This document shows, piece by piece, positions 20,083-42,579 of a stretch of DNA of 44,162 nucleotides (position 1 is its first letter; each line of letters starts with the position of its first letter). A program made the translations under genes and the position numbers. The notes beneath the pieces are model-generated. The model was not told the DNA's origin, did no database searches, and saw nothing but the letters and a program-made list of their open reading frames with translations. The stretch lies in contig SLST01000114.1 in the NCBI GenBank assembly GCA_007130265.1, positions 1-44,162 on the forward strand, in the 5' to 3' direction. Source of the DNA: Spirochaetales bacterium (lineage in GTDB: Bacteria > Spirochaetota > Spirochaetia > DSM-27196 > SLST01).

Positions 20083-20101
20083 AGCCTACCATGGAGCACG
20101 A

Positions 20102-20977: not shown

Positions 20978-21050
20978 CCGGTGTTTCGGTCGAGTCGCGT
21001 GAAGCGTCGCGTTGCGGCGGGCGACTCGAACCAATACCAAGGAGGACGAT

Positions 21051-25728: not shown

Positions 25729-25750
25729 CGCTCCTCCAGTCGGCATCGCC

Positions 25751-25779
25751 ACCGTATTAAGGCGCCGGTCCGGTGTCAA
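25751..25779 (-). promoter_or_regulatory. Promoter of the URO-D-like gene
   Basis: On the minus strand TTGACA (25779-25774) is followed by a 17-bp spacer and TACGGT (25756-25751). TAATAC at 15-bp spacing is an alternative -10. The ATG at 25728 is about 22 bases downstream. Confidence 0.4.
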
Positions 25780-25868: not shown

Positions 25869-27461
25869 TCAATAATCGTCCAACACGCGAGGATCGATCG
25901 CCGGCATCGTCTCGAGCTTCCAGATATCGACGGGCACGTCGTTCTGTTGCGCCCGTCCCGGCGTGCTGCGGCCGTCGGCGACGAGCTTCTTCAGACGAGC
26001 GAGCATGGCTTTGACTCGGTCCGGTTCCTGCGCATGGAGGTTCGTAGTCTCCCCGGGGTCGGCGTGCAAATCATAGAGTTGCACGAGCGGCAGACCCTGT
26101 TCCGCCGCCTCGCGGTCAGGGTGGGTCCATCCTCCTGAACCGGGACACAGCACCAGTTTCCACTCCCCGTCACGGATCGCAAACTTGCCGTCGATCGAAT
26201 GATGCACGACATGGTCGCGAACCGGCTCGTCGGGATGCCGGAACAGAGACAGCATGCTGAAGCTGTCTTCGCCGGCGCTGTCGGGCAGAGCGTCGCCGAC
26301 GATATCGGCACAGGTAGCCATCAGATCCGAAAGACAGACCAGTTGGCCACAGATGCTGCCGGGTTCGATGGCTCCCGGCCACCGGGCGATACAGGGGATA
26401 CGGTGTCCGCCGTCCCAGGCATCGGACTTGTAGCCTCTGTACGGGCCGCTGGGGAAGTGGCCCTGCGGTTCCATTGCCGACTCGTAGTTGCCCCGGCCAT
26501 CTTCCTTCGCTCCAACGTAGTGCGCGCAGCCGTTATCGCTGGTGAAGACGACGAGGGTATTGTCGGCAACCCCGTGCCTCTCGAGGGAGTCGAGGACGCG
26601 TCCGAACACATCGTCGGTCTCAATGACCAGATCGGCGTAAAGATTGGCGAGTCCACTTCGGCCAATGAACTCCTTGTTGACCGATAGCGGCGTGTGCGGA
26701 GACGTCATAGGCAGATAGAGAAAGAACGGCTCTTCCGCGGCGGCCCGTTCGCCGATGTAGTCATCCGCCTTCTTCGCCCAGGTTGGCAGGAGCTGCTCGA
26801 AGTGCCAGTAGGGCATGGCGGGGCCACGCCAGCTCGCCAGATTCTGAGCCATCAGACGCTCCGGGATGAACTCCGACGGGATACCTACCGTCCGATCGTT
26901 TTCGATGAAACAGTATGGGGGCCAGTTGGGAACGTCCACGCCAAAGTAGTAGTCGAACCCGCGCTTGGTAGGCCCGCCGGTCGTCGGCTTCGAGAAGGCC
27001 TCGCGCCAGAGAGCCTTCTGCGCTGAAGTCGCTTCGAGATCCTCGGGGAGCCTGTCGGGTTGGGTGAAGGCCGGGACTTCCGGGCGGAAGTCCTCCGGTG
27101 TCGCCTCGAAGTCCCACCCCTGTCCCAGATGCCACTTGCCGATGCACGCCGTGTGGTACCCGTGCGTCTTGAGAAATCCGGGTACGGTCAACCGGGTTCC
27201 CGCGATCAACGGATCCCCATAGACGCCGACGATTCCTCTCTGCAGCGTGGACCGCCAGTTGTAGCGCCCGGTAAGCACGCTGTAACGCGACGGCGAGCAC
27301 ACCGCCGAACTGGAATGAGCATCGGTGAAGACCATGCCCTCTGTGGCGAACCGGTCGATATTCGGCGTCTTGATCATCCCGTCCGGGTTCAGGCACGAAG
27401 CATCACCGTAGCCCATGTCGTCGACGAAGAAGTACACGATGTTGGGTTTTGAGTGCATCAT
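25869..27461 (-). CDS. Type I sulfatase (formylglycine-dependent), cytoplasmic
   Basis: The protein has 530 residues and starts MMHSKPNIVYFFVDDMGYGD, with the metal-binding Asp pair at once. The sulfatase signature is SAVCSPSRYSVLTGRY. Cys at about residue 55 is the one converted to formylglycine, and the CxPxR rule is met. Further motifs are [33 protein letters not shown] and GGHRIPCIARWPG. The C-terminal sub-domain contains HHSIDGKFAIRDGEWKLVLC. No signal peptide precedes the catalytic core. It is closely related to the divergent neighbour at 27603: both have the unusual TGRYNWRS and end with STPGxxQxN. It removes sulfate esters from sugar residues; which carbon is unknown. The ribosome site AAAGGAACT is upstream. 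It needs a formylglycine-generating enzyme not found in this window. Confidence 0.93.
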   Translation of the reverse strand: MMHSKPNIVYFFVDDMGYGDASCLNPDGMIKTPNIDRFATEGMVFTDAHSSSAVCSPSRYSVLTGRYNWRSTLQRGIVGVYGDPLIAGTRLTVPGFLKTHGYHTACIGKWHLGQGWDFEATPEDFRPEVPAFTQPDRLPEDLEATSAQKALWREAFSKPTTGGPTKRGFDYYFGVDVPNWPPYCFIENDRTVGIPSEFIPERLMAQNLASWRGPAMPYWHFEQLLPTWAKKADDYIGERAAAEEPFFLYLPMTSPHTPLSVNKEFIGRSGLANLYADLVIETDDVFGRVLDSLERHGVADNTLVVFTSDNGCAHYVGAKEDGRGNYESAMEPQGHFPSGPYRGYKSDAWDGGHRIPCIARWPGAIEPGSICGQLVCLSDLMATCADIVGDALPDSAGEDSFSMLSLFRHPDEPVRDHVVHHSIDGKFAIRDGEWKLVLCPGSGGWTHPDREAAEQGLPLVQLYDLHADPGETTNLHAQEPDRVKAMLARLKKLVADGRSTPGRAQQNDVPVDIWKLETMPAIDPRVLDDY

Positions 27462-27602
27462 AGTTCCTTTCTCCGTGACGTGAGATCCTGGGTATTCTCC
27501 TGGGCGCGCAGGTTTTCGTCAAGTGGAGCTACACCACCGACGGCCCTCCAAGCCGTCGGCGCAGACATGTACAATCCCCAACCAACGTAGTAGGCTCGGG
27601 CC
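27462..27602. promoter_or_regulatory. Divergent promoter region between two related sulfatases
   Basis: 141 bp separate the start codons of 25869-27461 and 27603-29105. On the plus strand TACAAT (27570-27575) is a good -10 with a poor -35. On the minus strand CTTGACG (-35) is followed at 17 bp by GAGAAT. The shared region suggests co-regulation of the two enzymes. Confidence 0.35.
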
Positions 27603-29105
27603 ATGAAGAAGCGGCCGAACCTGATCTATGTCCTTGCGGATGATCTGGGCTATGGCGACGTCTCGTGTCTCAACGAGCGCGCCGCATGGCGGACTCCAGC
27701 GTTCGATCGTCTTGCCGCCGAAGGAATGAGTTTCACCGATGCGCATGCGTCCTCTGCAGTGTGTACACCCTCGAGGTACTCGATCCTGACTGGACGGTAC
27801 AATTGGCGATCGCGGCTCAAGCAGTCGGTCATGGGCGGATACTCGCCACCGTTGATCGAGGATGGACGATCGACGGTCGGCTCAATGCTACGCGAGGCAG
27901 GGTACCGGACCGCCTGCATCGGCAAGTGGCACTTGGGTATGGACTGGGCCCGCAGCAGAACGGTTCCAGAGGCGCCTCAGTTCGGTCACACGGAGGGCGT
28001 CGAATTCGACCGCCCTATCTCAAACGGGCCGGTAACGCGTGGCTTCGACTATTTCTACGGCATTGCCGCCTCTCTGGATATGCCGCCGTATGTGTACATA
28101 GAGAACGAAAGGGCAACCGAAGTCCCGGATCACGACTCCGAGAATACCGGCCAGCAGGTATGGCGTGAGGGTCCCACCGCGCCGGGATTTCGGCACGATG
28201 AAGTCCTTCCACGCCTGACGAAGAAGGCGCTTGAGATCATCGATGCGTGGGCCGACGAGCCTTTCTTTCTCTACTTCGCGCTGCCAGCGCCACACACCCC
28301 AATACTCCCGGTGGGTGACTTTGTCGGCAAGAGTGGGACCACGGCCTACGGCGACTTCGTGCTGATGTGTGACGACGTGGTCGCCCAACTGACCTCCGGG
28401 CTCGAGGAAAAAGGCATCGCGGAGGACACCATCTTTGTCTTTACGAGCGATAACGGTTGTTCACCAATGGCCGACTTCAAGGCGCTTGCCCGGTACGATC
28501 ACAACCCTAGCTATGTCTTTCGTGGCGCCAAGGCCGACATCTACGAAGGTGGGCACCGGATTCCACTCCTCGTTCGCTGGCCCGCTCAGATACGGGCCGG
28601 CAGCCGCTGCGACCAGACAGTGTGTCTCGCGGATCTCTACGCGACCATGGCGGAAGTTACCGGGACATTCGTCCCGGACGAGGCGGGCGAAGACAGCGTC
28701 AGCAATCTGCCACTCTGGATGGAGTCGGCGGGCGATGCTTCCTTGCGGGAGGCAACGGTACACCATTCCATCGACGGATCCTTCTCGCTTCGCAAGGGCA
28801 GGTGGAAGCTCGAGCTCTGTCCGGGATCCGGCGGGTGGAGCGAGCCGCGACCGGGCGAGGAGCCTCCGGGCTCGCCGGAGTTCCAGCTCTACGACCTGGA
28901 GTCAGACGTAGGAGAGCGGCGGAATCTCGTAGATGAGCACCCTGAGGTCGTCGATGAGCTCAGGGCCCTTCTTGCTGAGTACGTTGTGAACGGTCGAAGC
29001 ACGCCCGGCAAGCCGCAGAAGAACACCGCACCCGAGTGGTGGGAACAGCTGAAATGGATGGAGCGGGACTATTCCACGCCCTTGAGCGAGAGCTCATCCG
29101 AATAG
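27603..29105 (+). CDS. Type I sulfatase (formylglycine-dependent), cytoplasmic
   Basis: The protein has 500 residues, [20 protein letters not shown], and the signature [19 protein letters not shown] has Cys at about residue 54. Also visible are [33 protein letters not shown] and [13 protein letters not shown]. The C-terminal block [20 protein letters not shown] is shared almost motif by motif with the divergent sulfatase at 25869. There is no signal peptide; the core begins at residue 5. The ribosome site is weak (AGGCTCGGGCC). Its 3' end overlaps the convergent oppF-like gene by 37 bp. The substrate is presumably a sulfated oligosaccharide delivered by the adjacent Opp-type importer. Cysteine-type maturation is required. 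Confidence 0.93.
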
Positions 29106-30112
29106 TGACACGCAGCGTAGTGGTCCGGCGAGACCTCGCGCCATTGAGGTACTTCAGTCCGGCAACGGTCGGTCGCATGCCCGCACCGGGGATGGAACGG
29201 GCAGCCGGAGGGTACTGCAGCGGGGTTCGCTACCTCGCCGGGCAGTACGATTCGGTTCGTTCTCCAATCCGGATCGGGACGCGGAACGGCAGAGAGCAGG
29301 GCCTCGGTGTACGGATGCTTGGGGTTGACGAATAGCTCTTCAGTACGGGCCATCTCCACGGTTTTGCCCACGTACATGACCATCACCCGGTCGCTGATGT
29401 GTTCGACCACGCTCAGGTTGTGCGCGATGAACATATAGGTCAAGTGGAACTCCTGCTGCAGATCCTGCAGCAGATTCAGAATCTGCGCCTGGATGGAGAC
29501 GTCGAGAGCGCTCACCGCCTCGTCGCAGACGATCAGCTGTGGATTCGTGGACAACGCCCGAGCGATGCCGATCCGCTGCCGCTGGCCGCCGCTGAACGCG
29601 TGAGGGTAACGGTTGAGGTGCTTGACCTCGAGTCCGACCACCCCCATCAGATAGCGAACCCGATCCTTCAGCCCGTCTCCGGATGCAAGCCCGCTGACCC
29701 GCAGTGGCTCACCGACGATATCCAGGATCGTCATACGTGGATCGAGCGAACTGTAGGGATCCTGAAAGATCATCTGGGCATGCCGTCGAATGCGGCGAAG
29801 CTCTCGATTGTCGAGTGAGGTGACATCCACCTCTTCGCCTCCATTCAGCCTGAACGTTACTCTGCCGTCGGTGGGCTCGATCGCACGCAGAATACACCGA
29901 CCAAGTGTGGTCTTGCCGCAACCGCTCTCTCCCACAACCCCGAGAGTCTCGCCGCGGTTGATGAAGAGGCTGACGTCGTCGACAGCTTTCACATGACCGA
30001 GCACCTTCCTCATGAAGCCCTTCTCGATCGGGAAGAACTTCCTCAGGTGCTCTACCTGCAGAAGTCGCTGATCCTGACCGGTAGTCGGCGCTGCGTTCAC
30101 TTCGGCGCTCAT
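29069..30112 (-). CDS. oppF: Opp/Dpp-type ABC transporter ATP-binding protein (OppF-like)
   Basis: The protein has 347 residues. Walker [10 protein letters not shown] is at 61-69, the Q-loop is [12 protein letters not shown], the signature [15 protein letters not shown] is near 173-187, and Walker B is [12 protein letters not shown]. The C-terminal oligopeptide-type cysteine cluster ([14 protein letters not shown]) marks the OppF group. Its start overlaps the oppD stop in ATGA, and it is the last gene of a four-gene minus-strand operon. The 3' end runs 37 bp into the convergent sulfatase gene. In this setting, with two binding proteins and five sulfatases around it, an oligosaccharide rather than a peptide substrate is inferred. 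Family-5 Opp-like systems are known to import sugars in some bacteria. Confidence 0.92.
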
Positions 30113-31209
30113 AGCTGGCTTCCCTCGGCTAGCGGTTCTTCATGCGGCGCCCCTGCAGACCTCCGTCGACGTGTCTTGCGAAGCTGCTTCGAAGTCTCAG
30201 TCGGTCTCGACTCCTGTCCTTCACTGTGCAGGAAGCATCGAACCCTGTGCCCGTCACCCATGTCGACCAGAGCGGGCACTGCCACATCGCAATGTCCGGC
30301 CTTCCGGTCCGGGCACCGATTCCAGAAACCGCACCGCCATGGTGGGTTGATTGGTATCGGGACAGTTCCGCTTATGGCATCCAGACGAACGCGGGCCTTC
30401 CGTCCGAGCATCGGTATACTTTTCAGAAGCCCGCGCGTGTAGGGATGGAGCGGAGAGTGGAAGATCTGCCGGGTAGTCCCTTGTTCCACGACACGGCCCA
30501 GGTACATCACCGCGACCTCGTCGGCAATCTCGGCGATGACGCCAAGATCATGCGTGATGTAGAGTATGCTCATCCCGTACAGATCCTGCAATTCGCGCAT
30601 CAACTCGAGTATCTGTGCCTGGACTGTCACGTCGAGCGCGGTGGTCGGCTCGTCGGCGATCAGCAGTGTTGGACGGCACGACAATGCCATCGCGATCATC
30701 GCTCGCTGCCGCATCCCACCGGAGAACTGGTGCGGATACTCATCTATTCTCTGTCTGGGATTACTGATTCCCACTCGTTCGAGCATCTCAAGCGTTATCT
30801 CCCTGGCTTCCCGGTCGTTCGGCGTCCGGTGCAGCAGAATCGCCTCCATGATCTGGTTGCCGATTGTGTGGACCGGCGATAGGCTGGTCATGGGCTCCTG
30901 GAAGATCATCGATATATGCCTGCCTCGGATCGAGCGCATTCTTTCGCCACTCTGATCGAGTGCCGTGAGGTCGACCGGCTCCTCCTCATCGGTCTGCAAG
31001 AGGATCTGTCCTCCGACGATCTGCCCTGGATTGGGGACGATCCGGAGGATACTCTGCGCGGTGACGCTCTTACCGCAACCACTTTCGCCGATGATACCGA
31101 GCGTACGCTTTGAGGCGACGTCGAAGCTCACACCATCGACAGCCTTCAGAACTCCGTCATCGAGGTTGAAGTAGGTACGCAGGTTGTTCACTTCTATAAC
31201 GCTACTCAA
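30109..31209 (-). CDS. oppD: Opp/Dpp-type ABC transporter ATP-binding protein (OppD-like)
   Basis: The protein has 366 residues if started at TTG 31209 ([18 protein letters not shown]), which is preceded by GAGGGGAG. A GTG at 31239 is an alternative that overlaps the upstream stop in GTGA but lacks a good ribosome site. The ORF-track start at 31806 runs through the permease gene and is wrong. Walker A is GESGCGKSV (41-49), the signature is [15 protein letters not shown] (161 on), and Walker B is [12 protein letters not shown]. The C-terminal cluster has [15 protein letters not shown]. It is the partner ATPase of the OppF-like subunit, coupled to it by ATGA. It powers import through the OppB/OppC-like permeases. 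Confidence 0.9.
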
Positions 31210-31235
31210 AATCTCCCCTCGTTTCGCGTCCCGGC

Positions 31236-32369
31236 TCACTTGTACGGATCGGCAGCGTCGCGCAACCCGTCGCCCAGAAAGTTGATCGCAAGCACCGCAA
31301 CAATTACGAAGAGCGCCGGTAGGAGCAGCCACGGATGAAGCGCGACCGTCTGTACGCTCTGTGCGCTCTGGAGCAACACTCCCCAGCTGACCGCAGGCGC
31401 TCGTAATCCAACCCCAATGAAGCTCAGCGCCGTCTCCCCAAGAATCATCGTGGGAATGCGCAGCGTCATGTTCACAATGAGGTAGCTCATGAACGAAGGC
31501 AGGAGATGTTTGGCGATGATCCCGGCGTCCGTCATGCCCGCGATCCGTGCAGCCATCACGAAGTCCTCCTTCCTCACCTGGAGCAACTTGCCTCGCACGA
31601 CGCGAGCCTGTCCGGTCCACGCCATCGTCGCGAGCACGATGGTGATCCCGAAGTAGACCCGCACTATCGGCCAGTCCGGCGGCAGGGCTGCTGCAAGCGC
31701 GAGCCAGAACGGTATCTGCGGAATCGCCAGCAAGAACTCGATCAGCCGTTGGATAACCATATCCACGTAGCCGCCATAGTAGCCTGCGAGTCCCCCGAAT
31801 ATGCACCCCAGGACGAATGCGATCAACACGCCAATCAACCCGACTGACAACGAGAGCCGCGCGGCGTACAGATTCCGGGTGAACAGGTCACGGCCCATGC
31901 TGTCGGTTCCGAACAGGAAGATTACTCCCCCGGGTTCGACACCGAACAGGTGGATATCGGTCTCGACGAGACCCCAGAAACGATACGGTGTCCCCCGGGT
32001 GAAGTAACGGATTGGGTAGACTTCTGAGGTATCGTCCTCGTAGACGCGTCTGAACGTCGCGCGATCGAGGGTTCCGCGGTACCCATAGACGAACCCACCG
32101 GGGTAGAACCGTCCATCCTGGTCGAAGAACCGGACGCGCATCGGTGGGCTGTAGATGTAGTCCGAGAAGCGTTGTGTGGGAGTGTACGGAGCGAGAAACC
32201 CACAGAAGATCCCCACCAGGTACATGAAGGCAATCACTACCAGTCCAGCAATGGCAAGTTTGTGCTTGAAGAACTTTCTTCTAATCAGCACCCACTGGGA
32301 TGCCATGTAGTACGATTCTTCCTGCGTTGCCTCTTCTGCCGTTGTGAGCACTTTCGATTCGTCAGTCAT
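31236..32369 (-). CDS. oppC: Opp/Dpp-type ABC permease (OppC-like)
   Basis: The protein has 377 residues from ATG 32369 (MTDESKVLTTAEEATQEESY), behind AAGGA; the TTG at 32387 is an alternative. The N-terminal cytoplasmic tail leads to a first span (LAIAGLVVIAFMYLVGIFCG). An unusually long loop of about 100 residues (60-160) follows before the family motif FGTDSMGRDLF. The EAA-type loop is DFVMAARIAGMTDAGIIAKHLLP, and the C-terminus NFLGDGLRDAADPYK is typical of OppC/DppC. Long first loops are common in Opp-like systems that carry sugars or large ligands. The start overlaps the oppB stop by 8 bp. Confidence 0.92.
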   Translation of the reverse strand: MTDESKVLTTAEEATQEESYYMASQWVLIRRKFFKHKLAIAGLVVIAFMYLVGIFCGFLAPYTPTQRFSDYIYSPPMRVRFFDQDGRFYPGGFVYGYRGTLDRATFRRVYEDDTSEVYPIRYFTRGTPYRFWGLVETDIHLFGVEPGGVIFLFGTDSMGRDLFTRNLYAARLSLSVGLIGVLIAFVLGCIFGGLAGYYGGYVDMVIQRLIEFLLAIPQIPFWLALAAALPPDWPIVRVYFGITIVLATMAWTGQARVVRGKLLQVRKEDFVMAARIAGMTDAGIIAKHLLPSFMSYLIVNMTLRIPTMILGETALSFIGVGLRAPAVSWGVLLQSAQSVQTVALHPWLLLPALFVIVAVLAINFLGDGLRDAADPYK

Positions 32370-33345
32370 ATCGAATCCTTGGATCAAGCGCTGCGAGCAA
32401 TATGTCGGAGATGAACATGCCGAGGATCGTCAGTGCGCTGAGCAGCATGAGAATGGATGCGGAAAGATACATGTCCTGACTCAGGAGCCCCTGGAGCAGC
32501 AACGGTCCAACGGTCGGTAGATCAAGTACGAGCGCGACGATCGTCTCGCCCGACACGATCGCCGGCAGGACCCAACCGATCGTACTGACGATCGGGTTCA
32601 GGGCAATTCGTACTGGGTACTTGAACAGGATAGTCCGCTCGTCCACACCCTTGGTTCGGGCGGTTATGACGTACTGTTTGGACAGCTCGTCGAGAAGCGT
32701 TGCACGCATCACCCGGATTATGCTCGCCGTGCCGGCGGTGCCAATGACGATGACCGGAATCGGGAGGTGTTTGATGAGGTCCCAGACCTTCCCCCAACTC
32801 CACGCTGCCCGCAGGTACTCAGGCGAGAAAAGTCCGCCCACGCTCATACCGAGGTAGCGATAGGAGACAAACATCAGGATCAATGCCAGCAGGAAGTTAG
32901 GTACGGCAAGGCCGACGAATCCGACCACGGTCGCAGCGTAGTCACCAATGGAGTACTGTCGCGTGGCAGAATATATCCCGATGGGAATCGCGACGGCGTA
33001 CGTGAACAGGAGGGTGATCAAACTGATCGTGACCGTCAGGGCAAGACGTTCACCAATAAGCGCAGCTACCGGACGGTTGTACTGAAAAGAAATCCCGAAG
33101 TTCCCTCGAAGCGCGGAGCTGATCCAGCGGAAATACTGAACGTAGACGGGCCGATCCAGCCCGTACGCCGCCCGCATGGCCGCAATCTCCTCGCGGCTCA
33201 CTTCCGCGTCCATCTCCTGTCTCGAAGCTATATAGGTTGATAAAAAGTCACCGGGCGGAAGCTGAATGACCATAAACGACACGATCGACACAAGAAGCAG
33301 GAGAACAAAGGTGTAGAGCACTCTTCGGACAAGATAGCGGGTCAC
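32362..33345 (-). CDS. oppB: Opp/Dpp-type ABC permease (OppB-like)
   Basis: The protein has 327 residues from GTG 33345, behind AGGAGGCGAG. It starts with the signature MTRYLVRRVLYTFVLLLLVS, followed by QLPPGDFLSTYIASRQEMD, YGLDRPVYVQYFRW and GNFGISFQYNRPV, all typical of OppB/DppB. The EAA loop appears as YVITARTKGVDERTILFKYPVRIALNP. The C-terminus ILLAALDPRIRYD is standard. It is the first gene of the oppBCDF-type operon and is divergent from the first family-5 binding-protein gene, with which it shares a back-to-back promoter. Confidence 0.93.
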   Translation of the reverse strand: MTRYLVRRVLYTFVLLLLVSIVSFMVIQLPPGDFLSTYIASRQEMDAEVSREEIAAMRAAYGLDRPVYVQYFRWISSALRGNFGISFQYNRPVAALIGERLALTVTISLITLLFTYAVAIPIGIYSATRQYSIGDYAATVVGFVGLAVPNFLLALILMFVSYRYLGMSVGGLFSPEYLRAAWSWGKVWDLIKHLPIPVIVIGTAGTASIIRVMRATLLDELSKQYVITARTKGVDERTILFKYPVRIALNPIVSTIGWVLPAIVSGETIVALVLDLPTVGPLLLQGLLSQDMYLSASILMLLSALTILGMFISDILLAALDPRIRYD

Positions 33346-33421
33346 GGACGCTCGCCTCCTGGAGCACTGCTCGCCATTCGGTCACAGGCAGTTATCACTA
33401 TTTGCGGAAACGGACCTGGGG

Positions 33422-33450
33422 ATTTAAGCATGACTCAGGCCGGTTGTCAA
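33422..33450 (-). promoter_or_regulatory. Promoter of the oppBCDF-type operon
   Basis: On the minus strand TTGACA (33450-33445), a 17-bp spacer, then TTAAAT (33427-33422). The -35 is one arm of the palindrome GTCAAGCTTGAC (33446-33457), whose other arm provides the -35 of the divergent promoter. Confidence 0.6.
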
Positions 33451-33452
33451 GC

Positions 33453-33481
33453 TTGACGGTATGCCGATACTGGCCTACAGT
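33453..33481 (+). promoter_or_regulatory. Promoter of the first family-5 SBP gene
   Basis: TTGACG (33453-33458), a 17-bp spacer, TACAGT (33476-33481). The same promoter, with the shared ATACTG..CTAC core, occurs at the same distance upstream of the second SBP gene (38961-38989). Transcription from here gives a leader of about 233 nt. Confidence 0.65.
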
Positions 33482-33501
33482 AACGATTGGACGGTGCTGT
33501 C

Positions 33502-33708
33502 ATGCCGACTGTCAGGCAAATCGCTAGACATATGAGCTTCGCTGATCGCAATTCTGCTGGCTTGTTACCTTCTTCTGTCAGAGTGATGCTCATGGAATCC
33601 AGCACGGCCTCATCCTATTTGTATATATCAAAAGGAGATGCAGACGGGAGCATTGGCTGCCGTGACGACGAGGGGGCATCGAGTTTCCTCGTCGAGATGT
33701 TCCAGTAG
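33502..33708 (+). CDS. Possible 68-codon leader ORF upstream of SBP1
   Basis: From ATG 33502 the frame runs 68 codons (MPTVRQIARHMSF...) to TAG at 33706-33708, ending 12 bp before the SBP ATG. The equivalent ATG and stop exist upstream of the second SBP, again 68 codons. The C-terminal parts match strongly: GDADGSIGCRDDE and LVEMFQ here against GNADGSIDCRDGE and LVEMFE there. The DADGSI...D pattern resembles an EF-hand or dockerin-type loop with one ligand missing. The middle is not conserved at protein level because one-base indels shift it between the copies. It may be a small protein, a leader peptide or a non-coding conserved leader. Confidence 0.3.
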   Translation: MPTVRQIARHMSFADRNSAGLLPSSVRVMLMESSTASSYLYISKGDADGSIGCRDDEGASSFLVEMFQ

Positions 33709-33720
33709 AGGAGGGACACG

Positions 33721-35709
33721 ATGAAAAGGTTTCTGTTGATGCCGACTCTGATGGTGCTGCTCGCGCTGTCCGCTTTCGGCGGGGCGCAGCCGGAAGAAGT
33801 GCAACCGGCCACAGCACCCGGAGTTGATGCGGAAGTGTGGGAGACCCCGGCGGTGTACGCAACCCCTGGGGATTTCCAGCGAGAGACCGGCGCTCAGTTG
33901 CCGCCGTACAATGAAGCGCCTGTCTTCCGGGAGCGAGTCGAGACGGGAGAACTGCCGCCAGTCGAAGACCGGCTGCCGGTAGAACCGCTCGTCGTGCGGC
34001 CGTGGAACCAGATAGGCACGTACAGCGAACGGGAGATCAGCGGGGACTCGGGAGATATTGCTTGCGCGAATGCACAGCATCTTCTGGAGATCATCGCGCC
34101 GGACTTCGCCACGCCGGTCCCGAACGTGTTGAAAGGGTACGTCCTCTCAAGCGATGCACGCAGCATAACGCTGCACCTTCGGGAAGGTCTGCGTTGGTCC
34201 GACGGCCATCCGCATACCGCCGACGACTTTGTGTTCTGGTATGAGGACGTTCTGAACAACTCGCAGCTCACACCCGCAAGACCGGCGATCTACACCTCGG
34301 GCGGTGAGTTCATGGATCTGACGAAGATTGACGACTACACCGTGCGGCTCGACTTCGCAGAGCCGTATCCGGCCATTACTGACGTCCTCGCAAGCGACCA
34401 ATGGTGGCAATACCCCATTCCGCCAAAGCACTACATGCAGCAGTGGCATATCGATTACAACCCGGATGCAGACGAGCTTGCGCGCGAGGAAGGGTTTGAG
34501 ACGTGGTACCAAGCATTCCTGATGCACAATACTACCGGGGCAGGCCAGCAGGACGTCGATCGTCCCGTTGTCTACCCGTGGAAACTCGTATCGATCGACA
34601 GCGCACAGAACCAGTATTGGGAGAGAAACCCGTACTTCTGGAAGGTCGATATCGCCGGCAACCAGCTGCCCTACATCGGACGCCTGAACGGTGTGCAGGT
34701 CGGGGATGCCCAGACCAAGCAGCTGCGCGTTATCTCCGGAGCCTTCCAGATTGGAGGCATCCTTCAGCCGCTGGCCTCTTATCCTCTCTATCTGGACAAC
34801 GCTGAGCGGGGAGATTACCGCGTGATGCTATGGGACGATCCTCGCGGCGCTTTTCGCGGTGCAGTTACGCTGAACCAGACGTCCAAGGATCCGGTGAAGC
34901 GTGAACTGTTCAGTGAGCTGAGGTTTAGACAGGCGCTGTCACTTGCGATCGACCGAGACGACGTGAATGAGACCTTGTTCTTCGGTCTGGGGGAACCGCG
35001 GCAGCCAGCCCCACCACCACCGGCCAGCCAATTCTACGAAGAGTGGATGAGGGATCACTACGCTGAGTACGATCCCGCCCGGTCGAACGCGCTGCTTGAT
35101 GAGATGGGGCTTCAGTGGGATGGCAGGCGGCAGTACCGTCTCCGACCTGACGGAGAACCACTCTCCATAAATCTCCAGTTCGTTGGGCAGTTTGATGGTA
35201 TTGCTCAGCTACTGCAGGAGTATTGGCAAGCGGTCGGGGTTAGAGTGGCTCTGCGAGAGGTCACCGGTGCAATGTGGACCCAGCTCGTGGACGCCAACGA
35301 TACGGATCTCGGAATTTGGTCAGTCGAGAATACTGACTTTGGAATGAGGCGAACTGGAGCGTCACCGGCGCGGCCACCGTGGACAGGAGCAAACGTACCT
35401 TGGGACCTCTGGTATGTCACGGGAGGAGCATCCGGTGAGGAGCCTCCCGAGGCTGTTCGAGAGCTGTACGCTTTGATCGATGAGTGGACACTGACGATTC
35501 CCGGCACTGAAAGGTACGTTGAGCTCGGAAAGGAAATCTGGAGAATCAACATAGAGAATCTTTTCATGATTGGCGCGGTCGGCCTTGTCCCGTACCCGGT
35601 CATCATCTCCAACAGTCTGGGTAACACAATGCCGGACGAGAGTCTCTGGAGCCCGAGTTTCCAACAGTGGGTTCCGTACATGGCTGAACAGTGGTTCTTC
35701 GTCGATTGA
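33721..35709 (+). CDS. Family-5 extracellular solute-binding protein (OppA-like), copy 1
   Basis: The protein has 662 residues from ATG 33721, behind GAGGAGGG. The N-terminus MKRFLLMPTLMVLLALSAFG is a signal peptide; the expected lipobox cysteine position reads SAFGG, not SACGG. The SBP_bac_5 core is clear: LRWSDGHPHTADDFVFWYED, FAEPYPAITDVLAS, RNPYFWKVDIAGNQLPYI, RFRQALSLAIDRDDVNETLF and YDPARSNALLDEMGLQWDG. At 662 residues it is longer than typical peptide-binding proteins, like carbohydrate-binding members of the family. It is divergent from oppB, implying it feeds that channel, and is nearly identical in layout to the copy at 39229. Two binding proteins with one permease set suggests recognition of two related ligands. 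Confidence 0.92.
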   Translation: MKRFLLMPTLMVLLALSAFGGAQPEEVQPATAPGVDAEVWETPAVYATPGDFQRETGAQLPPYNEAPVFRERVETGELPPVEDRLPVEPLVVRPWNQIGTYSEREISGDSGDIACANAQHLLEIIAPDFATPVPNVLKGYVLSSDARSITLHLREGLRWSDGHPHTADDFVFWYEDVLNNSQLTPARPAIYTSGGEFMDLTKIDDYTVRLDFAEPYPAITDVLASDQWWQYPIPPKHYMQQWHIDYNPDADELAREEGFETWYQAFLMHNTTGAGQQDVDRPVVYPWKLVSIDSAQNQYWERNPYFWKVDIAGNQLPYIGRLNGVQVGDAQTKQLRVISGAFQIGGILQPLASYPLYLDNAERGDYRVMLWDDPRGAFRGAVTLNQTSKDPVKRELFSELRFRQALSLAIDRDDVNETLFFGLGEPRQPAPPPPASQFYEEWMRDHYAEYDPARSNALLDEMGLQWDGRRQYRLRPDGEPLSINLQFVGQFDGIAQLLQEYWQAVGVRVALREVTGAMWTQLVDANDTDLGIWSVENTDFGMRRTGASPARPPWTGANVPWDLWYVTGGASGEEPPEAVRELYALIDEWTLTIPGTERYVELGKEIWRINIENLFMIGAVGLVPYPVIISNSLGNTMPDESLWSPSFQQWVPYMAEQWFFVD

Positions 35710-35723
35710 TTGGTTCATATTCT

Positions 35724-35749
35724 ACCGCTACCGGCCGGCCGGTAGCGGT
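35724..35749 (+). other. Perfect 26-bp palindrome behind SBP1
   Basis: ACCGCTACCGGCC-GGCCGGTAGCGGT is a perfect inverted repeat 15 bp after the SBP1 stop. No T-run follows, so it is unlikely to be an efficient intrinsic terminator. As RNA it would form a very stable stem that could block 3' exonucleases and raise SBP1 levels relative to the sulfatase genes downstream. Confidence 0.65.
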
Positions 35750-35920
35750 GTGTGCAGTCCCGTGCGGTGCTGGTCTCAATGAGAGGCCAATGGACGACGA
35801 TCAACGAAATGTGTCTGAGGGAGCGTTGATACCGCATAGTAGAACCTCCGGAACGCATCTCTTTGTGATTGGGGCAAAGACGATCGGCCAAGCGCGATCA
35901 TTCCGTATGAGGAGGTTTCT

Positions 35921-37363
35921 GTGATCAGCCGCCTACCGAATATTGTTCTGATCATGTGCGATGATCTCGGTTACGGGGACACTGGGTTCAACGGTAACGA
36001 GGTAATACGAACCCCCAATCTGGATGAACTTCGTTCCGAAGGAGCACGCTTCACCAGGTTCTTCGCCGGAGGTCCTGTCTGCTCTCCTACACGTGGCACC
36101 TGCCTGACGGGACGCCATTATTCACGCTATGGCATCACGCACGCGAACAAGGGGCGTCTTCCGACGCAGGAGATATCGCTGGGCGTGGCCTGTAAGCAGT
36201 GCGGCTATCGGACCGGCCATTTCGGCAAATGGCATCTTGGCACCCTCACCACGGATATCCCCGACAGCAGGAGAGGCGGTCCAGATCATCTGCATGAGTA
36301 TTCACCACCATGGTTGCATGGGTTTGACACCTGCTTCTCCACAGAAGCCAGAGTGCCAACCTGGGACCCGATGGTGACACCAGATGAGATTGGTCCGAAA
36401 GGGCAAAAGCACGGAGTGCCCGGCTCACCTTTCGGCGCTTTCTACTGGAATCAGGAAGGAACTATCGCAAAAGACAACCTTCGAGGCGACGACTCAAGGG
36501 TGATCATGGACAGGGTGGAGCCCTTCGTGCGCGAATGCGCTTCCGCCGACGAACCCTTCCTCGCGGTCGTCTGGTTTCACACGCCGCACACGCCGGTTGT
36601 TGCCGGCCCCGAATACCGGGCTATGTACTCGCGCTTCAGCGATGACGAGCAGCACTATTACGGGTGCGTTACTGCGATGGACGAGCAAGTAGGCAGACTT
36701 AACCGCTTGCTCAAGGAGCTTGGGCTCGAGGATAGAACGATGCTCTGGTTCTGTTCGGATAACGGTCCTGAAGGTTCGGAGAACGTCTCTCAGAACGGAC
36801 GTAACAGGGGCAGTACCGGAGGCCTCAGAGGACGCAAGCGTAGCCTCTTTAACGGCGGTATTGGCGTGCCGGCATTGCTGAAATGGCCTGGGCCCGTTTC
36901 TCCAGGAACCCAATACGATATGCCCTGCAGCACCCTGGACTATTTCCCGACGATCACTGAACTCATTGGCTTCACCGTGCCCGACAACAGACCCATTGAC
37001 GGCATCAGCCTCCTACCACTCATAGACAGCCAGTTGTCGATACGCCCGAAGCCGATTCCTTACCGCTTCATGGAAAGGAGGGACTCGATGTTCGGATCGC
37101 CGACACACGCCCTCATAGACAGTCAGCACAAATATCTAACGAACTTTTCGGCTGATGGGTCCGAGGACATGCTCTTCAACATTGACTCGGATGTCAATGA
37201 ATGTACAAGTATCCTGAGTGGCTGTCCGGACCGTGTACGTGAGATGCGCGAACACCTGCAGAGCTTCATCGAGTCCTGCCGAAGAAGCCACTACGGGCAC
37301 GACTATCCAGAGCCGAGCGAACCCATAGAAGACTTTCAGGAGATCACCGGGACGTGGCGATGA
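35921..37363 (+). CDS. Type I sulfatase (formylglycine-dependent), cytoplasmic
   Basis: The protein has 480 residues from GTG 35921 (MISRLPNIVLIMCDDLGYGD), behind GAGGAGG. The signature GPVCSPTRGTCLTGRHYSRY has Cys at about residue 54. Other motifs are GHFGKWHLGTLT, FHTPHTPVVAG, WFCSDNGPEGS and RGRKRSLFNGGIGVPALLKW. The catalytic core starts at residue 5 with no signal peptide. It is a different subfamily from the 25869/27603 pair. It lies 211 bp downstream of SBP1, after the palindrome, and 149 bp before the next sulfatase, so the three genes may be transcribed together. It cleaves a sulfate ester on a sugar of unknown identity. Confidence 0.93.
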   Translation: MISRLPNIVLIMCDDLGYGDTGFNGNEVIRTPNLDELRSEGARFTRFFAGGPVCSPTRGTCLTGRHYSRYGITHANKGRLPTQEISLGVACKQCGYRTGHFGKWHLGTLTTDIPDSRRGGPDHLHEYSPPWLHGFDTCFSTEARVPTWDPMVTPDEIGPKGQKHGVPGSPFGAFYWNQEGTIAKDNLRGDDSRVIMDRVEPFVRECASADEPFLAVVWFHTPHTPVVAGPEYRAMYSRFSDDEQHYYGCVTAMDEQVGRLNRLLKELGLEDRTMLWFCSDNGPEGSENVSQNGRNRGSTGGLRGRKRSLFNGGIGVPALLKWPGPVSPGTQYDMPCSTLDYFPTITELIGFTVPDNRPIDGISLLPLIDSQLSIRPKPIPYRFMERRDSMFGSPTHALIDSQHKYLTNFSADGSEDMLFNIDSDVNECTSILSGCPDRVREMREHLQSFIESCRRSHYGHDYPEPSEPIEDFQEITGTWR

Positions 37364-37512
37364 GGAATCGTCATTACTGAGCGGTGTCGCGCCACGAGGC
37401 CGTGTGCCGCTCGCGAAGCTTGGGAGGTCTCACCGTACCAGAGATGAGTCGGTCTGAGAGTCCATCTGCGTTGACTGGCGGACCGAACTCATTTATAGCA
37501 TGGGAGGAATAC

Positions 37513-38838
37513 GTGCCATCACCTAAGCCCAACTTTCTCTTCTTCTTTCCTGACCAGCAACGTCCTGATTGGCTGGGATTCGGGCCCGGGCTGGACGTAC
37601 AGACGCCTACGCTCTCCAGGATCGCCCAGCGTGGCGTTCGTTTTGCCGAGGCACTGACGCCAAGCCCGCTGTGTGCACCGGCTCGCGCTTGTCTTGCCTC
37701 CGGACGTGGATACCGTGACTGTGGCGTTTCCGACAACCGCAGCGACTATCCACTTGAACTTCCGACATACTACCAGGTGCTACGGGACGTCGGATACCGC
37801 GTCGCTGGGGTTGGTAAGTTCGATCTGCACAAAGACACTTCTGATTTCGCACAACTTGATTGGTACATGGACGGATCTCGGCTACTCTCCGAGTGGGGTT
37901 TCACCGAGGGCGTAGATAACGAGGGGAAGATCGATGGTAGCATGAGCTACCGACAGGCGGGTCGGGCCAAGGGCCCGTACATGAAAACCCTCGCTGACCG
38001 TGGCCTGGCCGAGGCCTATCTGGCAGAACACGACCGACTGGGTGATGGCCCTGGTGCCTACACAACGATCGTCCCGGACGACCTCTACTGCGACAACTGG
38101 CTCGCAGAAAACGGGAAGCAGATCCTTCAGGGTTTCCCGGAAGATCAGCCGTGGCATCTAATCGTCAACTTCACAGGACCTCATAGCCCAATGGACGTGA
38201 CCGAGTCAATGCGTCGAAGTGTTGAGCATCGCACCTATCCTCATGCTATAGCAAACGACCGCCACGATGCAGACGCCATTCTGAGGGTTCGACAGAACTA
38301 CACGGCCATGGTGGAGAACATCGATCGGCTCATGGCCGAGATGATTGAGATTGTTCAGGGACGTGGCGAACTTGAGCGAACCATGGTCATCTACTCCAGC
38401 GACCACGGCGAGATGCTGGGGGACTTCGGTCTATTCGGCAAGGGCATCTGGCGGTACGCTGCCGCTCACATTCCGCTTGTCATTCAGGCACCCGGCGCCC
38501 AAGGCGGTGCGGTATCGGACGCGCTGGTCGACCTGACTGATGTTACTGCAACCATACTCGACTATGCGGGATGCGAGCCGCTGCCGGAGATGACTGGCAG
38601 GAGTTTGCGGCGGGTGCTTGAGTTCCCCGGCCAGCCTCACCGCGACGTCGCCGTATCAGCTTTGGGCGACTGGCGTCTCGCCTACGACGGAAGAAACAAG
38701 CTTGTCCTCGAGAAAGGAAGAGCTCCGCGGCTGTTCGACCGCCAGCATGATCCGTTTGAACAGATCGACTGCGCGACCGAACGTCCCGAGACAGTCGCCT
38801 ATCTTGGCCGATATCTCTGCGAGGTGTCGAAGACCTGA
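37513..38838 (+). CDS. Type I sulfatase, choline-sulfatase/DQ-type subgroup, cytoplasmic
   Basis: The protein has 441 residues from GTG 37513 (VPSPKPNFLFFFPDQQRPDW), behind GGGAGGAAT. The ORF-track start at 37384 has no site and adds a non-homologous tail. The N-terminal metal motif is D-Q rather than D-D, as in choline-sulfatase and phosphonate-monoester-hydrolase-like members. The signature is SPLCAPARACLASGRGYRD, with Cys at about residue 54. Later come GKFDLHKDTSDF, FTGPHSPMDVT and IYSSDHGEMLGDFGLFGKG. No signal peptide is seen. Its subgroup differs from the other four sulfatases, which suggests a different sulfate position on the same glycan. The 3' end is followed by the promoter of the second SBP copy. 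Confidence 0.92.
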   Translation: MPSPKPNFLFFFPDQQRPDWLGFGPGLDVQTPTLSRIAQRGVRFAEALTPSPLCAPARACLASGRGYRDCGVSDNRSDYPLELPTYYQVLRDVGYRVAGVGKFDLHKDTSDFAQLDWYMDGSRLLSEWGFTEGVDNEGKIDGSMSYRQAGRAKGPYMKTLADRGLAEAYLAEHDRLGDGPGAYTTIVPDDLYCDNWLAENGKQILQGFPEDQPWHLIVNFTGPHSPMDVTESMRRSVEHRTYPHAIANDRHDADAILRVRQNYTAMVENIDRLMAEMIEIVQGRGELERTMVIYSSDHGEMLGDFGLFGKGIWRYAAAHIPLVIQAPGAQGGAVSDALVDLTDVTATILDYAGCEPLPEMTGRSLRRVLEFPGQPHRDVAVSALGDWRLAYDGRNKLVLEKGRAPRLFDRQHDPFEQIDCATERPETVAYLGRYLCEVSKT

Positions 38839-38960
38839 CACCCTCGCAGCGAAAGCCTCGATTGCCGTCTCCGGCCTCCGACTCCCGAAACCGGAGCGGG
38901 TGCCGTGCCGGTTCGATCAGCCGCGCCCTGCGCGTCGAACACCGTCAGCGGACGTCGCGA

Positions 38961-38989
38961 TTGACGGCACCTCTATACTGCTCTACTAT
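38961..38989 (+). promoter_or_regulatory. Promoter of the second family-5 SBP gene
   Basis: TTGACG (38961-38966), a 17-bp spacer, TACTAT (38984-38989). It is homologous to the promoter at 33453. The distance from the last -10 base to the SBP ATG is 240 bp in both copies. Confidence 0.6.
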
Positions 38990-39009
38990 GGCGAGCAGAT
39001 GGTGCTGCC

Positions 39010-39216
39010 ATGCCGATTGTCGAGCGAGCCGATAGAAACTGCTGCACAGCTGATTTCACACTTCAACCCGCTATCGACTTCTCCTGCCAGAGCGGTACAG
39101 ATCGAGGCCAGCACGACTCTATCCCATCTGCCATATCCACGGGAAATGCAGACGGCAGCATTGATTGCCGTGACGGCGAGGAGACCTCCAGTCAACTCGT
39201 CGAGATGTTCGAGTAG
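39010..39216 (+). CDS. Possible 68-codon leader ORF upstream of SBP2
   Basis: The frame starts at ATG 39010 (MPIVERADRNCCTADF) and ends at TAG 39214-39216, 12 bp before the SBP2 ATG. Length, start position and C-terminus (GNADGSIDCRDGEE, LVEMFE) match the leader ORF of copy 1. The central third differs in frame between the copies, so this reading is uncertain. No strong ribosome site is visible before the ATG. Confidence 0.3.
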   Translation: MPIVERADRNCCTADFTLQPAIDFSCQSGTDRGQHDSIPSAISTGNADGSIDCRDGEETSSQLVEMFE

Positions 39217-39228
39217 AGGAGGGACACG

Positions 39229-41217
39229 ATGAAAAGGTTTCTGTTGATACCGGCTCTGATGGCACTGCTCGCGCTGTCCGCTTTTGGCGGGGCGCAGCCG
39301 GAAGAAGTCCAACCGGCCACAGCACCCGGAGTTGATGCGGAAGTGTGGGAGACCCCGGCGGTGTACGCAACCCCTGGGGATTTCCAGCGAGAGACCGGCG
39401 CTCAGTTGCCGTCGTACAATGAAGCGCCTGTCTTCCAGGAGCGAGTCGAGGCAGGAGAACTGCCGCCAGTCGAAGACCGGCTCCCAGTCGAGCCCCTTGT
39501 CGTGCGGCCGTGGAACCAGATAGGCACGTACAGCGAACGGGAGATCGCGGCCGACTGGAGGGATCTTGCTTCCGCGAACGCACAACACCTTCTGGAGATC
39601 ATCGCGCCGGACTTCACCATGCCGGTTCCGAACGTGCTGAAAGGCTATGATCTCTCAGATGACGCACGCAGCATAACACTGCACCTTCGAGAAGGTCTGC
39701 GTTGGTCCGACGGCCATCCGCATACGGCAGACGACTTCGTGTTCTGGTATGAAGACGTTCTGAACAATTCGGAGCTCACGCCTGCACGGCCCGCGGTCTA
39801 TTTTTCTGCCGGTGTGTTCATGGATCTGACGAGGATCGACGACTACACCGTTCGGCTCGACTTTGCCGAACCGTACCCGGTCATCCTCGACGTTCTCGCG
39901 AGTGAACTTTGGTGGCAATATCCTATTCCGCCAAAGCACTACATGCAGCAGTGGCATATCGACTACAATCCGGATGCAGGCGCGCTTGCGCGCGAGGAAG
40001 GTTTTGAGACCTGGTACCAGGCATTCTTGATGCACAATGCCACCGGCGCAGACCAGCAGGACGTCGACCGCCCAACGGTCTACCCATGGGTACTGACGTC
40101 TATCGACAGCGCCCAGAACCAGTACTTCGAGAGGAACCCGTATTTCTGGAAGGTTGATATCGCCGGCAATCAGCTGCCCTATATCGGCCGCATGACTGGC
40201 GTGCGGGTCGGTGATGCTCAGGTCAAGCAGCTGAGAGTCATCTCGGGCGACTTTCATCTAGGGGGGGTGTGGCAATCGGTCGCTAACTATCCGCTCTATC
40301 TCGATAACGAGGAGCGCGGAAACTATCGAGCGATGCTGTGGGAAGATCCACGCGGATCAATGGATACTGCGATCAGCCTCAACCAAACCTCGCCGGATCC
40401 GGTCAAGAGGGAAATGTTCCGAGATCTTCGGTTCCGACAGGCGCTCTCGCTTGCCATCGACCGAGAGGAGATGAACGAGACGCTCTTCTTCGGCCTGGGC
40501 GAACCGCGACAGGCCGCACCACCGCCCGCAGCGAGCGATCTCTTCGAAGAGTGGATGCGCGACTACTATGCCGACTATGATCCTGCAAGAGCAAATGAGT
40601 TGCTCGACGAGATGGGACTCCAGTGGGACGCCCGACGTGAGTTTCGTCTCCGTCCGGACGGACAGCCGGTCACGATAAACATGCAGTTCGTCGAGCGGTA
40701 CGATCCCATATCGCAGCTGCTGCAGGAGTACTGGCAGGCGGTAGGCGTGAGGGTCACACTCAGGCAGGTGACCGGCGCGATGTGGACCGAGCTTGTACAG
40801 GCCAACGAGACCGACATGGGGCGCTGGGCGCTTGAGAACACCGACTTCACGATGCGGCGCACCCGTGCTGCAGTCGCACGGCCGCCGTGGACCGGCGCCA
40901 ACTATCCATGGGGTACATGGTACACGACGGATGGTGCGTCAGGTGAAGAGCCACCGGAGACCGTCAAAGAGTTGTACCGCGTGATTGACGAGTGGTCGAC
41001 GACGGTGGCTGGGACGGATCGCCACATCGAGCTGGGCAAAGAGATCTGGCGAATCAACATTGAGAATCTTTTCGTGATCGGAGCGGTCGGTCTCGTTCCG
41101 TACCCGGTTATCATCACCAATAGTCTGGGTAACACAATGCCGGACGAGAGCCTCTGGAGCCCAAGCTACCAGCAGTGGGTGCCGTACATGGCCGAACAGT
41201 GGTTTTTTGTTGATTGA
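39229..41217 (+). CDS. Family-5 extracellular solute-binding protein (OppA-like), copy 2
   Basis: The protein has 662 residues, the same length as copy 1, from ATG 39229 behind GAGGAGGG. The signal peptide MKRFLLIPALMALLALSAFG again has SAFGG at the lipobox position. Core motifs match copy 1: LRWSDGHPHTADDFVFWYED, RNPYFWKVDIAGNQLPYI and RFRQALSLAIDREEMNETLF. Differences from copy 1 concentrate in stretches such as GVFMDLTRIDD, GDFHLGGVWQSVANYP and ENTDFTMRRTRAAVARPP, which may line the ligand site. No permease is adjacent, so it probably shares the oppBCDF-type channel. It is followed by a strong terminator at 41243 and then a fifth sulfatase. Confidence 0.92.
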   Translation: MKRFLLIPALMALLALSAFGGAQPEEVQPATAPGVDAEVWETPAVYATPGDFQRETGAQLPSYNEAPVFQERVEAGELPPVEDRLPVEPLVVRPWNQIGTYSEREIAADWRDLASANAQHLLEIIAPDFTMPVPNVLKGYDLSDDARSITLHLREGLRWSDGHPHTADDFVFWYEDVLNNSELTPARPAVYFSAGVFMDLTRIDDYTVRLDFAEPYPVILDVLASELWWQYPIPPKHYMQQWHIDYNPDAGALAREEGFETWYQAFLMHNATGADQQDVDRPTVYPWVLTSIDSAQNQYFERNPYFWKVDIAGNQLPYIGRMTGVRVGDAQVKQLRVISGDFHLGGVWQSVANYPLYLDNEERGNYRAMLWEDPRGSMDTAISLNQTSPDPVKREMFRDLRFRQALSLAIDREEMNETLFFGLGEPRQAAPPPAASDLFEEWMRDYYADYDPARANELLDEMGLQWDARREFRLRPDGQPVTINMQFVERYDPISQLLQEYWQAVGVRVTLRQVTGAMWTELVQANETDMGRWALENTDFTMRRTRAAVARPPWTGANYPWGTWYTTDGASGEEPPETVKELYRVIDEWSTTVAGTDRHIELGKEIWRINIENLFVIGAVGLVPYPVIITNSLGNTMPDESLWSPSYQQWVPYMAEQWFFVD

Positions 41218-41242
41218 CGCCATGACCCAGTCTTGACGTCAG

Positions 41243-41273
41243 GCGGGAGCGCATACAGCGTTCCCGCTTTTTT
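41243..41273 (+). terminator. Rho-independent terminator after SBP2
   Basis: GCGGGAGCGC-ATACA-GCGTTCCCGC forms a 10-bp stem with one G-U pair, followed directly by TTTTTTG. It lies 26 bp after the SBP2 stop and 44 bp before the sulfatase start. Expression of the last sulfatase would need read-through or a further promoter. Confidence 0.85.
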
Positions 41274-41316
41274 GTTTCCTTGCCGCGACAGTGCGTACGT
41301 GAAGGAGAACGCTGAG

Positions 41317-42579
41317 ATGCGACCACCGAACATCGTGATTATCCTTGCCGACGACATGGGATACGGGGACCTTGGCTGTTACGGCAATACGATGATCAAG
41401 ACCCCTAACATTGACGGCCTCGCGTCGGCCGGAATGCGATTCACTGATTTCCACTCAAACGGCGCCGTGTGCAGCCCAACGCGAGCGGCGCTCCTGACAG
41501 GCAGATACCAGCAACGCTGCGGGATCGAAGGTGTGGTAACGGCCGCCAACCATCGGGATGTCGGGATGGCGCTCTCCGAGTATACCTTCGCGAAAGGTCT
41601 TAAAGAGGCAGGATATCAGACGGCACTCTTTGGAAAGTGGCACTTAGGATACGACCGGCAGTTCAACCCGGTCCGTCACGGGTTCGATGAGTTTCGTGGA
41701 TTTGTCTCCGGGAATGTCGACTACCAGTCGCATATCGACCAGGCCGGCGTGGAGGATTGGTGGTTCGATGCCTCGCTCGCACCGGAAGACGGGTACACAA
41801 CGGACTTGGTGACGCGCTACGGTGTACGCTTCATAGAAGGACACCGAGAAGACCCTTTCTGTCTCTATCTTGCCCACGAGTGTCCGCACTATCCTTACCA
41901 GGGACCCGATGATCCGGCCTTTCGCACGCCTGGTCATCCGGAGCCAGTCCAGGGGCCACGGGAAGATAGAGCTGCCGCGTACAAGGAGATGATCGAGGCG
42001 CTCGACCAAGGTGTCGGCGAGGTGATGAGAGCTCTCGACCGCTCGGGACTTCGCGAGAACACTTTGGTCTTCTTTTTCTCCGACAGCGGACCCGCGGGTC
42101 CGGGATCTGCGGGAGGACTGCGCGGGCGAAAGGGAAGCGTCTGGGAGGGAGGCCATCGAGTTCCGGCGATTGCCTGCTGGCCGGGCCGAGTAGGGCCGGC
42201 GACCGAGACCGATCACCCGGCGATGGGGATGGACCTCTTCCCCACAATGCTCGAGCTTGCCGGCCTGGCTCCACCGGAGACACCAAGACTGGACGGCGTG
42301 AGTCTTGCGCCTCTTCTCACGGGTGCGGGCAGCATGACTGAGAGAGATCTGTTCTGGCGATGTGGCAACGGGAAGGCCGTGCGCCGAGGCGACTGGAAAC
42401 TCGTTGTATCGCCGGAAGACGGCCCGTCGAGCGCGAACACGGAGCTCTTCAATCTCGCGGTAGATCCGGCAGAGGCGAACGACATTGCCGGTAGCGAACC
42501 GACGATCACGGAGGAGCTATCGCGCGCTCTGGAGGCGTGGGAGGCCGACGTATCTGCCGGTGTTCGGCGGTTGACGTAG
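41317..42579 (+). CDS. Type I sulfatase (formylglycine-dependent), cytoplasmic
   Basis: The protein has 420 residues from ATG 41317 (MRPPNIVIILADDMGYGDLG), behind GAAGGAGA. The ORF-track start at 41233 lies upstream of the terminator and is rejected. The signature GAVCSPTRAALLTGRYQQRC has Cys at about residue 52. Also present are LFGKWHLGYDRQF and GRKGSVWEGGHRVPAIACW. The second metal site normally reads SDNG, but here it is FFFSDSGPAG, with Ser in place of the Asn ligand. The short length and arylsulfatase A-like layout are otherwise normal. There is no signal peptide. The unusual ligand residue could alter metal affinity or activity. The gene follows SBP2 after a terminator. Confidence 0.92.
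   Translation: MRPPNIVIILADDMGYGDLGCYGNTMIKTPNIDGLASAGMRFTDFHSNGAVCSPTRAALLTGRYQQRCGIEGVVTAANHRDVGMALSEYTFAKGLKEAGYQTALFGKWHLGYDRQFNPVRHGFDEFRGFVSGNVDYQSHIDQAGVEDWWFDASLAPEDGYTTDLVTRYGVRFIEGHREDPFCLYLAHECPHYPYQGPDDPAFRTPGHPEPVQGPREDRAAAYKEMIEALDQGVGEVMRALDRSGLRENTLVFFFSDSGPAGPGSAGGLRGRKGSVWEGGHRVPAIACWPGRVGPATETDHPAMGMDLFPTMLELAGLAPPETPRLDGVSLAPLLTGAGSMTERDLFWRCGNGKAVRRGDWKLVVSPEDGPSSANTELFNLAVDPAEANDIAGSEPTITEELSRALEAWEADVSAGVRRLT

Follow-up and report, generated by a model that had tools for sequence, protein, structure and literature searches.

Introduction

Desulfation of glycan fragments after their import has been proposed for Streptobacillus moniliformis: an ABC importer of this bacterium binds and imports unsaturated GAG disaccharides, one of which is 6-sulfated, and both its sulfatase Smon0126 and its unsaturated glucuronyl hydrolase are predicted to be cytoplasmic (PMC5430744). 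Similarly, scavenging of partly degraded products by means of export-free CAZymes has been proposed for Bacillota of fish guts (PMC11077953). In two Kiritimatiellales strains, signal peptides were found on 354 of 521 and 339 of 480 sulfatases, and 141 and 106 sulfatases, respectively, were predicted to be soluble cytoplasmic proteins (PMC6388578); in Pontiella agarivorans, 96% of the sulfatases are exported, as judged by a count of signal peptides (PMC10880615). Among binding proteins (SBPs), SPH1118 of Sphingomonas sp. A1 is a pectin-binding protein of cluster C, which takes unsaturated trigalacturonate as a ligand and whose arginines also hold MES by its sulfo groups (PMC9314435).

The locus studied here occupies positions 25869 to 42579 of a window that is the whole contig C596 (44,162 bases), part of a 4.47 Mb genome in 616 contigs (86% complete, 5% contaminated). 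Another genome of the same order (G018) shares a contig with Spirochaetaceae bacterium GEM2.Bin48, which supports the phylum first guessed for this DNA. As in S. moniliformis, predicted cytoplasmic sulfatases are encoded beside an ABC importer. The two systems differ in composition: that of S. moniliformis, whose substrate is host GAG, combines Smon0121-0122, one ATPase in two copies (Smon0120), one SBP (Smon0123) and one sulfatase, whereas the window encodes OppBCDF, two SBPs and five sulfatases. The Kiritimatiellales (anaerobes) also have many S1 sulfatases, but most of theirs are exported, compared with 2 of 50 in the window's genome. Sulfated glycan catabolism by SusCD-type PULs of Bacteroidota likewise uses S1 sulfatases; in the window's genome, in contrast, these enzymes are not exported and an ABC importer replaces SusCD. 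No SusD (PF14322) was detected in the window's genome or in ten relatives (0 of 11 genomes), and a Bacteroides control was positive.

Given the precedents in S. moniliformis and fish-gut Bacillota, the locus varies a known import-then-desulfate concept. The first-pass annotation of this DNA had called the coupling undescribed, which went too far: a published system already combines a predicted cytoplasmic sulfatase with uptake of sulfated disaccharides by an ABC transporter (PMC5430744), and export-free sulfatases are the rule in the order of the window's genome and in the two other phyla that we sampled. The novelty lies in the form that the concept takes here, with an Opp-type importer, several sulfatases, duplicated receptors and recurrence in a spirochaete order. 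No report of Opp-type import of sulfated glycans was found in the open-access literature searched.

Results

Gene content of the locus

The features of the locus are as follows.

25869 to 27461, minus strand: sulfatase 1, without signal peptide (Pfam and PDB match, C55-S-P-S-R, SD-like sequence; nearest solved structure of S1_15 type)
27603 to 29105, plus strand: sulfatase 2, without signal peptide (Pfam; paralogue of sulfatase 1, 45% identity)
29069 to 30112, minus strand: OppF-type ATPase (ABC_tran and oligo_HPY, NCBIfam)
30109 to 31200, minus strand: OppD-type ATPase (GTG at 31200 is the likely start codon; the mechanical ORF extends to 31806)
31236 to 32369, minus strand: OppC-type permease (BPD_transp_1 and OppC_N; likely ATG start at 32369)
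32362 to 33345, minus strand: OppB-type permease (Pfam)
33453 to 33481, plus strand: sigma70-like promoter TTGACG-17-TACAGT, upstream of SBP-A, within a duplicated leader
33721 to 35709, plus strand: SBP-A, family 5 (cluster C), with signal peptide (PF00496; nearest to 5ipw and SPH1118; fold)
35921 to 37363, plus strand: sulfatase 3, C-S-P-T-R, without signal peptide (Pfam, motif, SD GAGGAGG)
37513 to 38838, plus strand: sulfatase 4, C-A-P-A-R, divergent branch (Pfam, motif, SD GGGAGGA)
38961 to 38989, plus strand: second copy of the promoter, TTGACG-17-TACTAT
39229 to 41217, plus strand: SBP-B, 82% identical to SBP-A and duplicated with a leader of about 300 bp
41317 to 42579, plus strand: sulfatase 5, C-S-P-T-R, without signal peptide (Pfam, motif, SD AAGGAG; nearest solved structures are carrageenan sulfatases)

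All gene assignments between 25869 and 42579 were confirmed by Pfam. The five type I sulfatases that had been called from the letters are all real: they scored 118-202 bits with PF00884 (cut-off 25), carry a Cys-type CxP/AxR motif and contain the residues of S1 (formylglycine) enzymes, C/S-x-P/A-x-R with D-D(Q), GK, H and D-N(H/S). Sulfatase 4 has variants at the metal- and sulfate-binding positions (GKFDLH, SDHG). These genes flank, as had been described, a complete oppBCDF set (minus strand, 29069-33345) and two family-5 binding proteins with signal peptides. OppB, OppC, OppD and OppF were identified by matches to PF00528 with PF19300, to OppC_N, and to ABC_tran with oligo_HPY; together with the SBP_bac_5 (PF00496) proteins SBP-A and SBP-B, whose N-termini read MKRFLLxPxLMxLLALSAFG, they make up an Opp/Dpp-type importer. 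Sulfatases 1 and 2 are divergent, and SBP-A, sulfatase 3, sulfatase 4, SBP-B and sulfatase 5 form a co-directional run on the plus strand (33721-42579).

The sulfatases of the locus and of its relatives lack export signals

Export signals were assessed from the distance between the start codon and the catalytic core and by a Kyte-Doolittle hydropathy scan of the N-termini, in which 42 of 60 SBP5 proteins and none of 94 Opp ATPases reached 2.0 or more. The core strand (PNIV or PNFL) lies 3-5 residues after the start in all five sulfatases. Sulfatases 1, 3, 4 and 5 each have an SD-like sequence ahead of the short start (GGAGAAAGGA at 27461 for sulfatase 1); sulfatase 2 (27603) has a weak one only. 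Longer open frames begin upstream of sulfatase 4 (37384 instead of 37513) and sulfatase 5 (41233 instead of 41317), and they do not resemble signal peptides, their best 10-residue Kyte-Doolittle means being 0.63 and 1.27. No signal peptide was found in any open frame ahead of the core strand (0 of 5 sulfatases). The claim that these enzymes have none thus survived the search for better starts, and SD sequences support four of the five short starts. A cytoplasmic location of the five sulfatases, as predicted from their N-termini, is strongly supported.

The export signal is also absent from 48 of the 50 sulfatases of the window's genome with a readable N-terminus. Of the other two, L010 is of a membrane-anchored type and L014 is a lipoprotein of Ser type encoded on a short contig (C211). 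L014, in which SSPAR replaces CxPxR, is the sole lipoprotein-type sulfatase seen in this genome, and may be a contamination of the MAG. An export signal is likewise missing from all 45 sulfatases sampled from relatives, 23 of them in the genus and 22 in the order of the window's genome. Two genomes of other phyla, a Latescibacterota (G041) and a Caldilineaceae (G042), contain 55 and 43 sulfatase matches; in a sample of 32 sulfatases drawn mainly from them (one sequence comes from a third genome), 31 lack an export signal and the other, L283, carries a hydrophobic segment at its N-terminus. Cytoplasmic sulfatase expansion is therefore not confined to Spirochaetota. These counts rule out that the absence of export signals is peculiar to the locus or, with the Latescibacterota and Caldilineaceae samples, to Spirochaetota. 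The contrast first drawn with phyla that export their sulfatases is thus right, but not as a local feature, since it holds genome-wide and in all the relatives' sulfatases sampled.

Sulfatase relatives and maturation

Among solved structures, S1_15-type enzymes are closest to sulfatases 1 and 2, galactan and carrageenan sulfatases are closest to sulfatases 3 and 5, and GlcNAc-6-sulfatase, choline-sulfatase and phosphonate monoester hydrolase are closest to sulfatase 4. These similarities hint at sulfated galactan-type substrates without fixing them. The window's genome has 57 PF00884 matches. It encodes an anSME (TIGR03942, contig C243, 399.9 bits for a cut-off of 349.45) and FGE-type proteins (PF03781, contig C361 and others); sulfatase maturation in the cytosol is therefore available.

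The binding proteins resemble sugar binders and have diverged at their ligand loops

The nearest sequence neighbours of the SBPs are 5ipw and SPH1118, the latter being the closest characterised relative of SBP-A and SBP-B (E value 2e-76). SPH1118 is also the best fold match (TM 0.82) of an AlphaFold model of SBP-A (pLDDT 85.8, pTM 0.83), followed by the galactoside binder MelB and by chitin-oligosaccharide binders; NikA and peptide binders rank behind the sugar binders. The cut-off of none of the NCBIfam oligopeptide equivalogs was reached (SBPs at best with Opp4A, 79 bits for 650 required; OppB with Opp4B, 239 for 450). The substrate of SPH1118 is unsulfated pectin. Transfer of the SPH1118 ligand to SBP-A and SBP-B was considered and rejected, because its ligand arginines R57, R438, R466 and R496 are replaced by A114, F/Y491, G516 and T545 in the window's proteins (its W594 falls outside the alignment), and ligand loops vary clade-wide. 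The absence of these arginines suggests that SBP-A and SBP-B probably bind a different ligand.

At the nucleotide level, the two SBP genes are 97% identical at the 5' end, and identity falls to 63-73% across residues 361-600, where much of the ligand-loop region lies. The likeness of the 5' ends, leaders and promoters, combined with the divergence over 361-600, suggests that specificity has diverged and that regulation is shared. Differences between SBP-A and SBP-B cluster at ligand-aligned sites (17 of 36, versus 95 of 544; p = 8e-5); since ligand loops are hypervariable across the clade, this is a hint that the two proteins bind different ligands, not a proof. An Rfam scan of the window, made to see whether the duplicated leader is a known riboswitch, gave no match.

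Opp and sulfatase genes co-occur in relatives

The neighbourhoods of 21 SBP5 loci, picked by SBP rank alone, were searched for sulfatases. Six contained one, compared with 1.6 expected from genome-wide sulfatase density (p = 0.003); the sulfatase count is a lower bound for three of the genomes, so that the expectation of 1.6 is slightly low. In G005, a sister species, contig C173 carries on one strand, as overlapping genes, a sulfatase, OppD, OppF, SBP5, OppB, OppC and two sulfatases. Two contigs of the window's genome, C141 (OppF, SBP5) and C371 (OppB, OppC, two sulfatases), match this operon at 90-99% identity; the window's genome therefore has a second Opp-sulfatase system, shared with G005. 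Spirochaetaceae bacterium GEM2.Bin48, of the same order, has OppBCDF followed by a sulfatase in a single run (L208/L052), and in G003 (L216) a sulfatase gene is transcribed divergently from oppBCDF-SBP5. A close orthologue of the exact arrangement was not detected; the best SBP outside the window's genome is 42% identical.

These data bear on the possibility that the substrates of the cytoplasmic sulfatases enter through other importers (the CUT1 genes at 19021-22673, or others), Opp being a mere neighbour that imports unsulfated sugars or peptides. A family-1 SBP and two permeases do lie 3-8 kb from the locus, other sulfatases of the window's genome are located 0.4-3.5 kb from non-Opp ABC permeases, and most SBP5 relatives outside the order have no sulfatase nearby. 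However, the co-directional, overlapping Opp and sulfatase genes of G005 and of the window's genome, the single run in GEM2.Bin48 and the enrichment of sulfatases near SBP5 genes argue against coincidental proximity, and we consider this explanation unlikely. In conclusion, the Opp-sulfatase link is real, neither universal nor exclusive: the conserved co-occurrence foreseen in relatives was found and upholds a coupling, but not an exclusive one, as other ABC families also adjoin sulfatases.

Discussion

Probable import before desulfation

The locus probably encodes a catabolic unit for fragments of sulfated glycans in which import comes first. As sulfatases without export signals are encoded beside an Opp importer, still-sulfated sugars are probably imported before they are desulfated. 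Oligosaccharides released outside the cell would be captured in the periplasm by the two cluster-C SBPs, which probably differ in ligand preference. Still sulfated, they would cross the inner membrane with OppBC as the channel and OppDF as the source of energy. Inside the cell, the sulfates would be removed by the five Cys-type S1 sulfatases, which anSME, and perhaps also an FGE, would have matured in the cytosol, and export-free glycoside hydrolases would complete degradation in the cytoplasm. The import-first layout initially proposed thus remains the best explanation and its prediction of cytoplasmic sulfatases stands; we infer the order of events, the identity of the ligand and the passage of a sulfated oligosaccharide through Opp. 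No secreted depolymerase is encoded in the window; the fragments may be produced by other organisms or by secreted enzymes encoded elsewhere in the genome.

Sulfatases can also serve sulfur supply. In the Pseudomonas ats system, sulfate esters are imported and then cleaved by a cytoplasmic arylsulfatase. The locus could likewise free sulfate from small imported esters for sulfur rather than carbon, and the structures nearest to sulfatase 4, which include choline-sulfatase and phosphonate monoester hydrolase, would fit such a role. This is improbable, as four of the five sulfatases are nearest to glycan sulfatases, the SBPs, of about 640 residues, have fold neighbours that bind oligosaccharides, and some 50 sulfatases per genome far exceed the need for sulfur supply. 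Export of the sulfatases to the periplasm by a mechanism that leaves no trace at the N-terminus is very hard to credit: no computed result supports it, the core strand begins at residues 4-6 in all five, four have SD sites, and the pattern is nearly uniform across 95 sulfatases of the order.

Desulfation inside the cell keeps the freed sulfate and sugars private, and it demands importers able to take up sulfated oligosaccharides, which are bulky and highly charged; no characterisation of such a specificity in Opp-type systems was found in the literature searched. The duplicated SBPs and the conserved Opp-sulfatase operon provide concrete proteins for testing it. More tentatively, import-first desulfation might represent a second strategy of general occurrence, alongside export in Bacteroidota and PVC bacteria, used by Spirochaetota, Latescibacterota and Chloroflexota with ABC glycan importers and about 40-57 almost wholly cytoplasmic sulfatases per genome, the Opp type being one dedicated route. 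If the three phyla do follow this pattern, a large group of scavengers is overlooked by those models of glycan turnover in marine and sediment settings in which desulfation is taken to be periplasmic or extracellular.

Other genes in the window

A second glycan cluster (501-22673) encodes two GH95-like proteins, a GH78 alpha-L-rhamnosidase, a GH35 beta-galactosidase, a LacI regulator and a family-1 ABC importer. A heparinase II/III-like gene (3112-5613, minus strand) has one in-frame TGA (4738-4740) with an open frame on both sides, which may be a nonsense mutation, an assembly error or the boundary of two genes. No signal peptides were seen on the GH95-like, heparinase-like, GH78 and GH35 genes of the window. 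A gene 89 bp downstream of sulfatase 1 (24655-25779, minus strand) encodes a uroporphyrinogen-decarboxylase-family protein that matched no NCBIfam model and may serve as a methyltransferase for O-methyl groups. An HpcH/HpaI-type aldolase adjoining sulfatase 5 (42754-43533, minus strand) scored below every named equivalog cut-off and possibly acts on a 2-keto-3-deoxy sugar acid. Beside the LacI gene, overlapping frames without Pfam match (15663-18109) look like a decayed gene.
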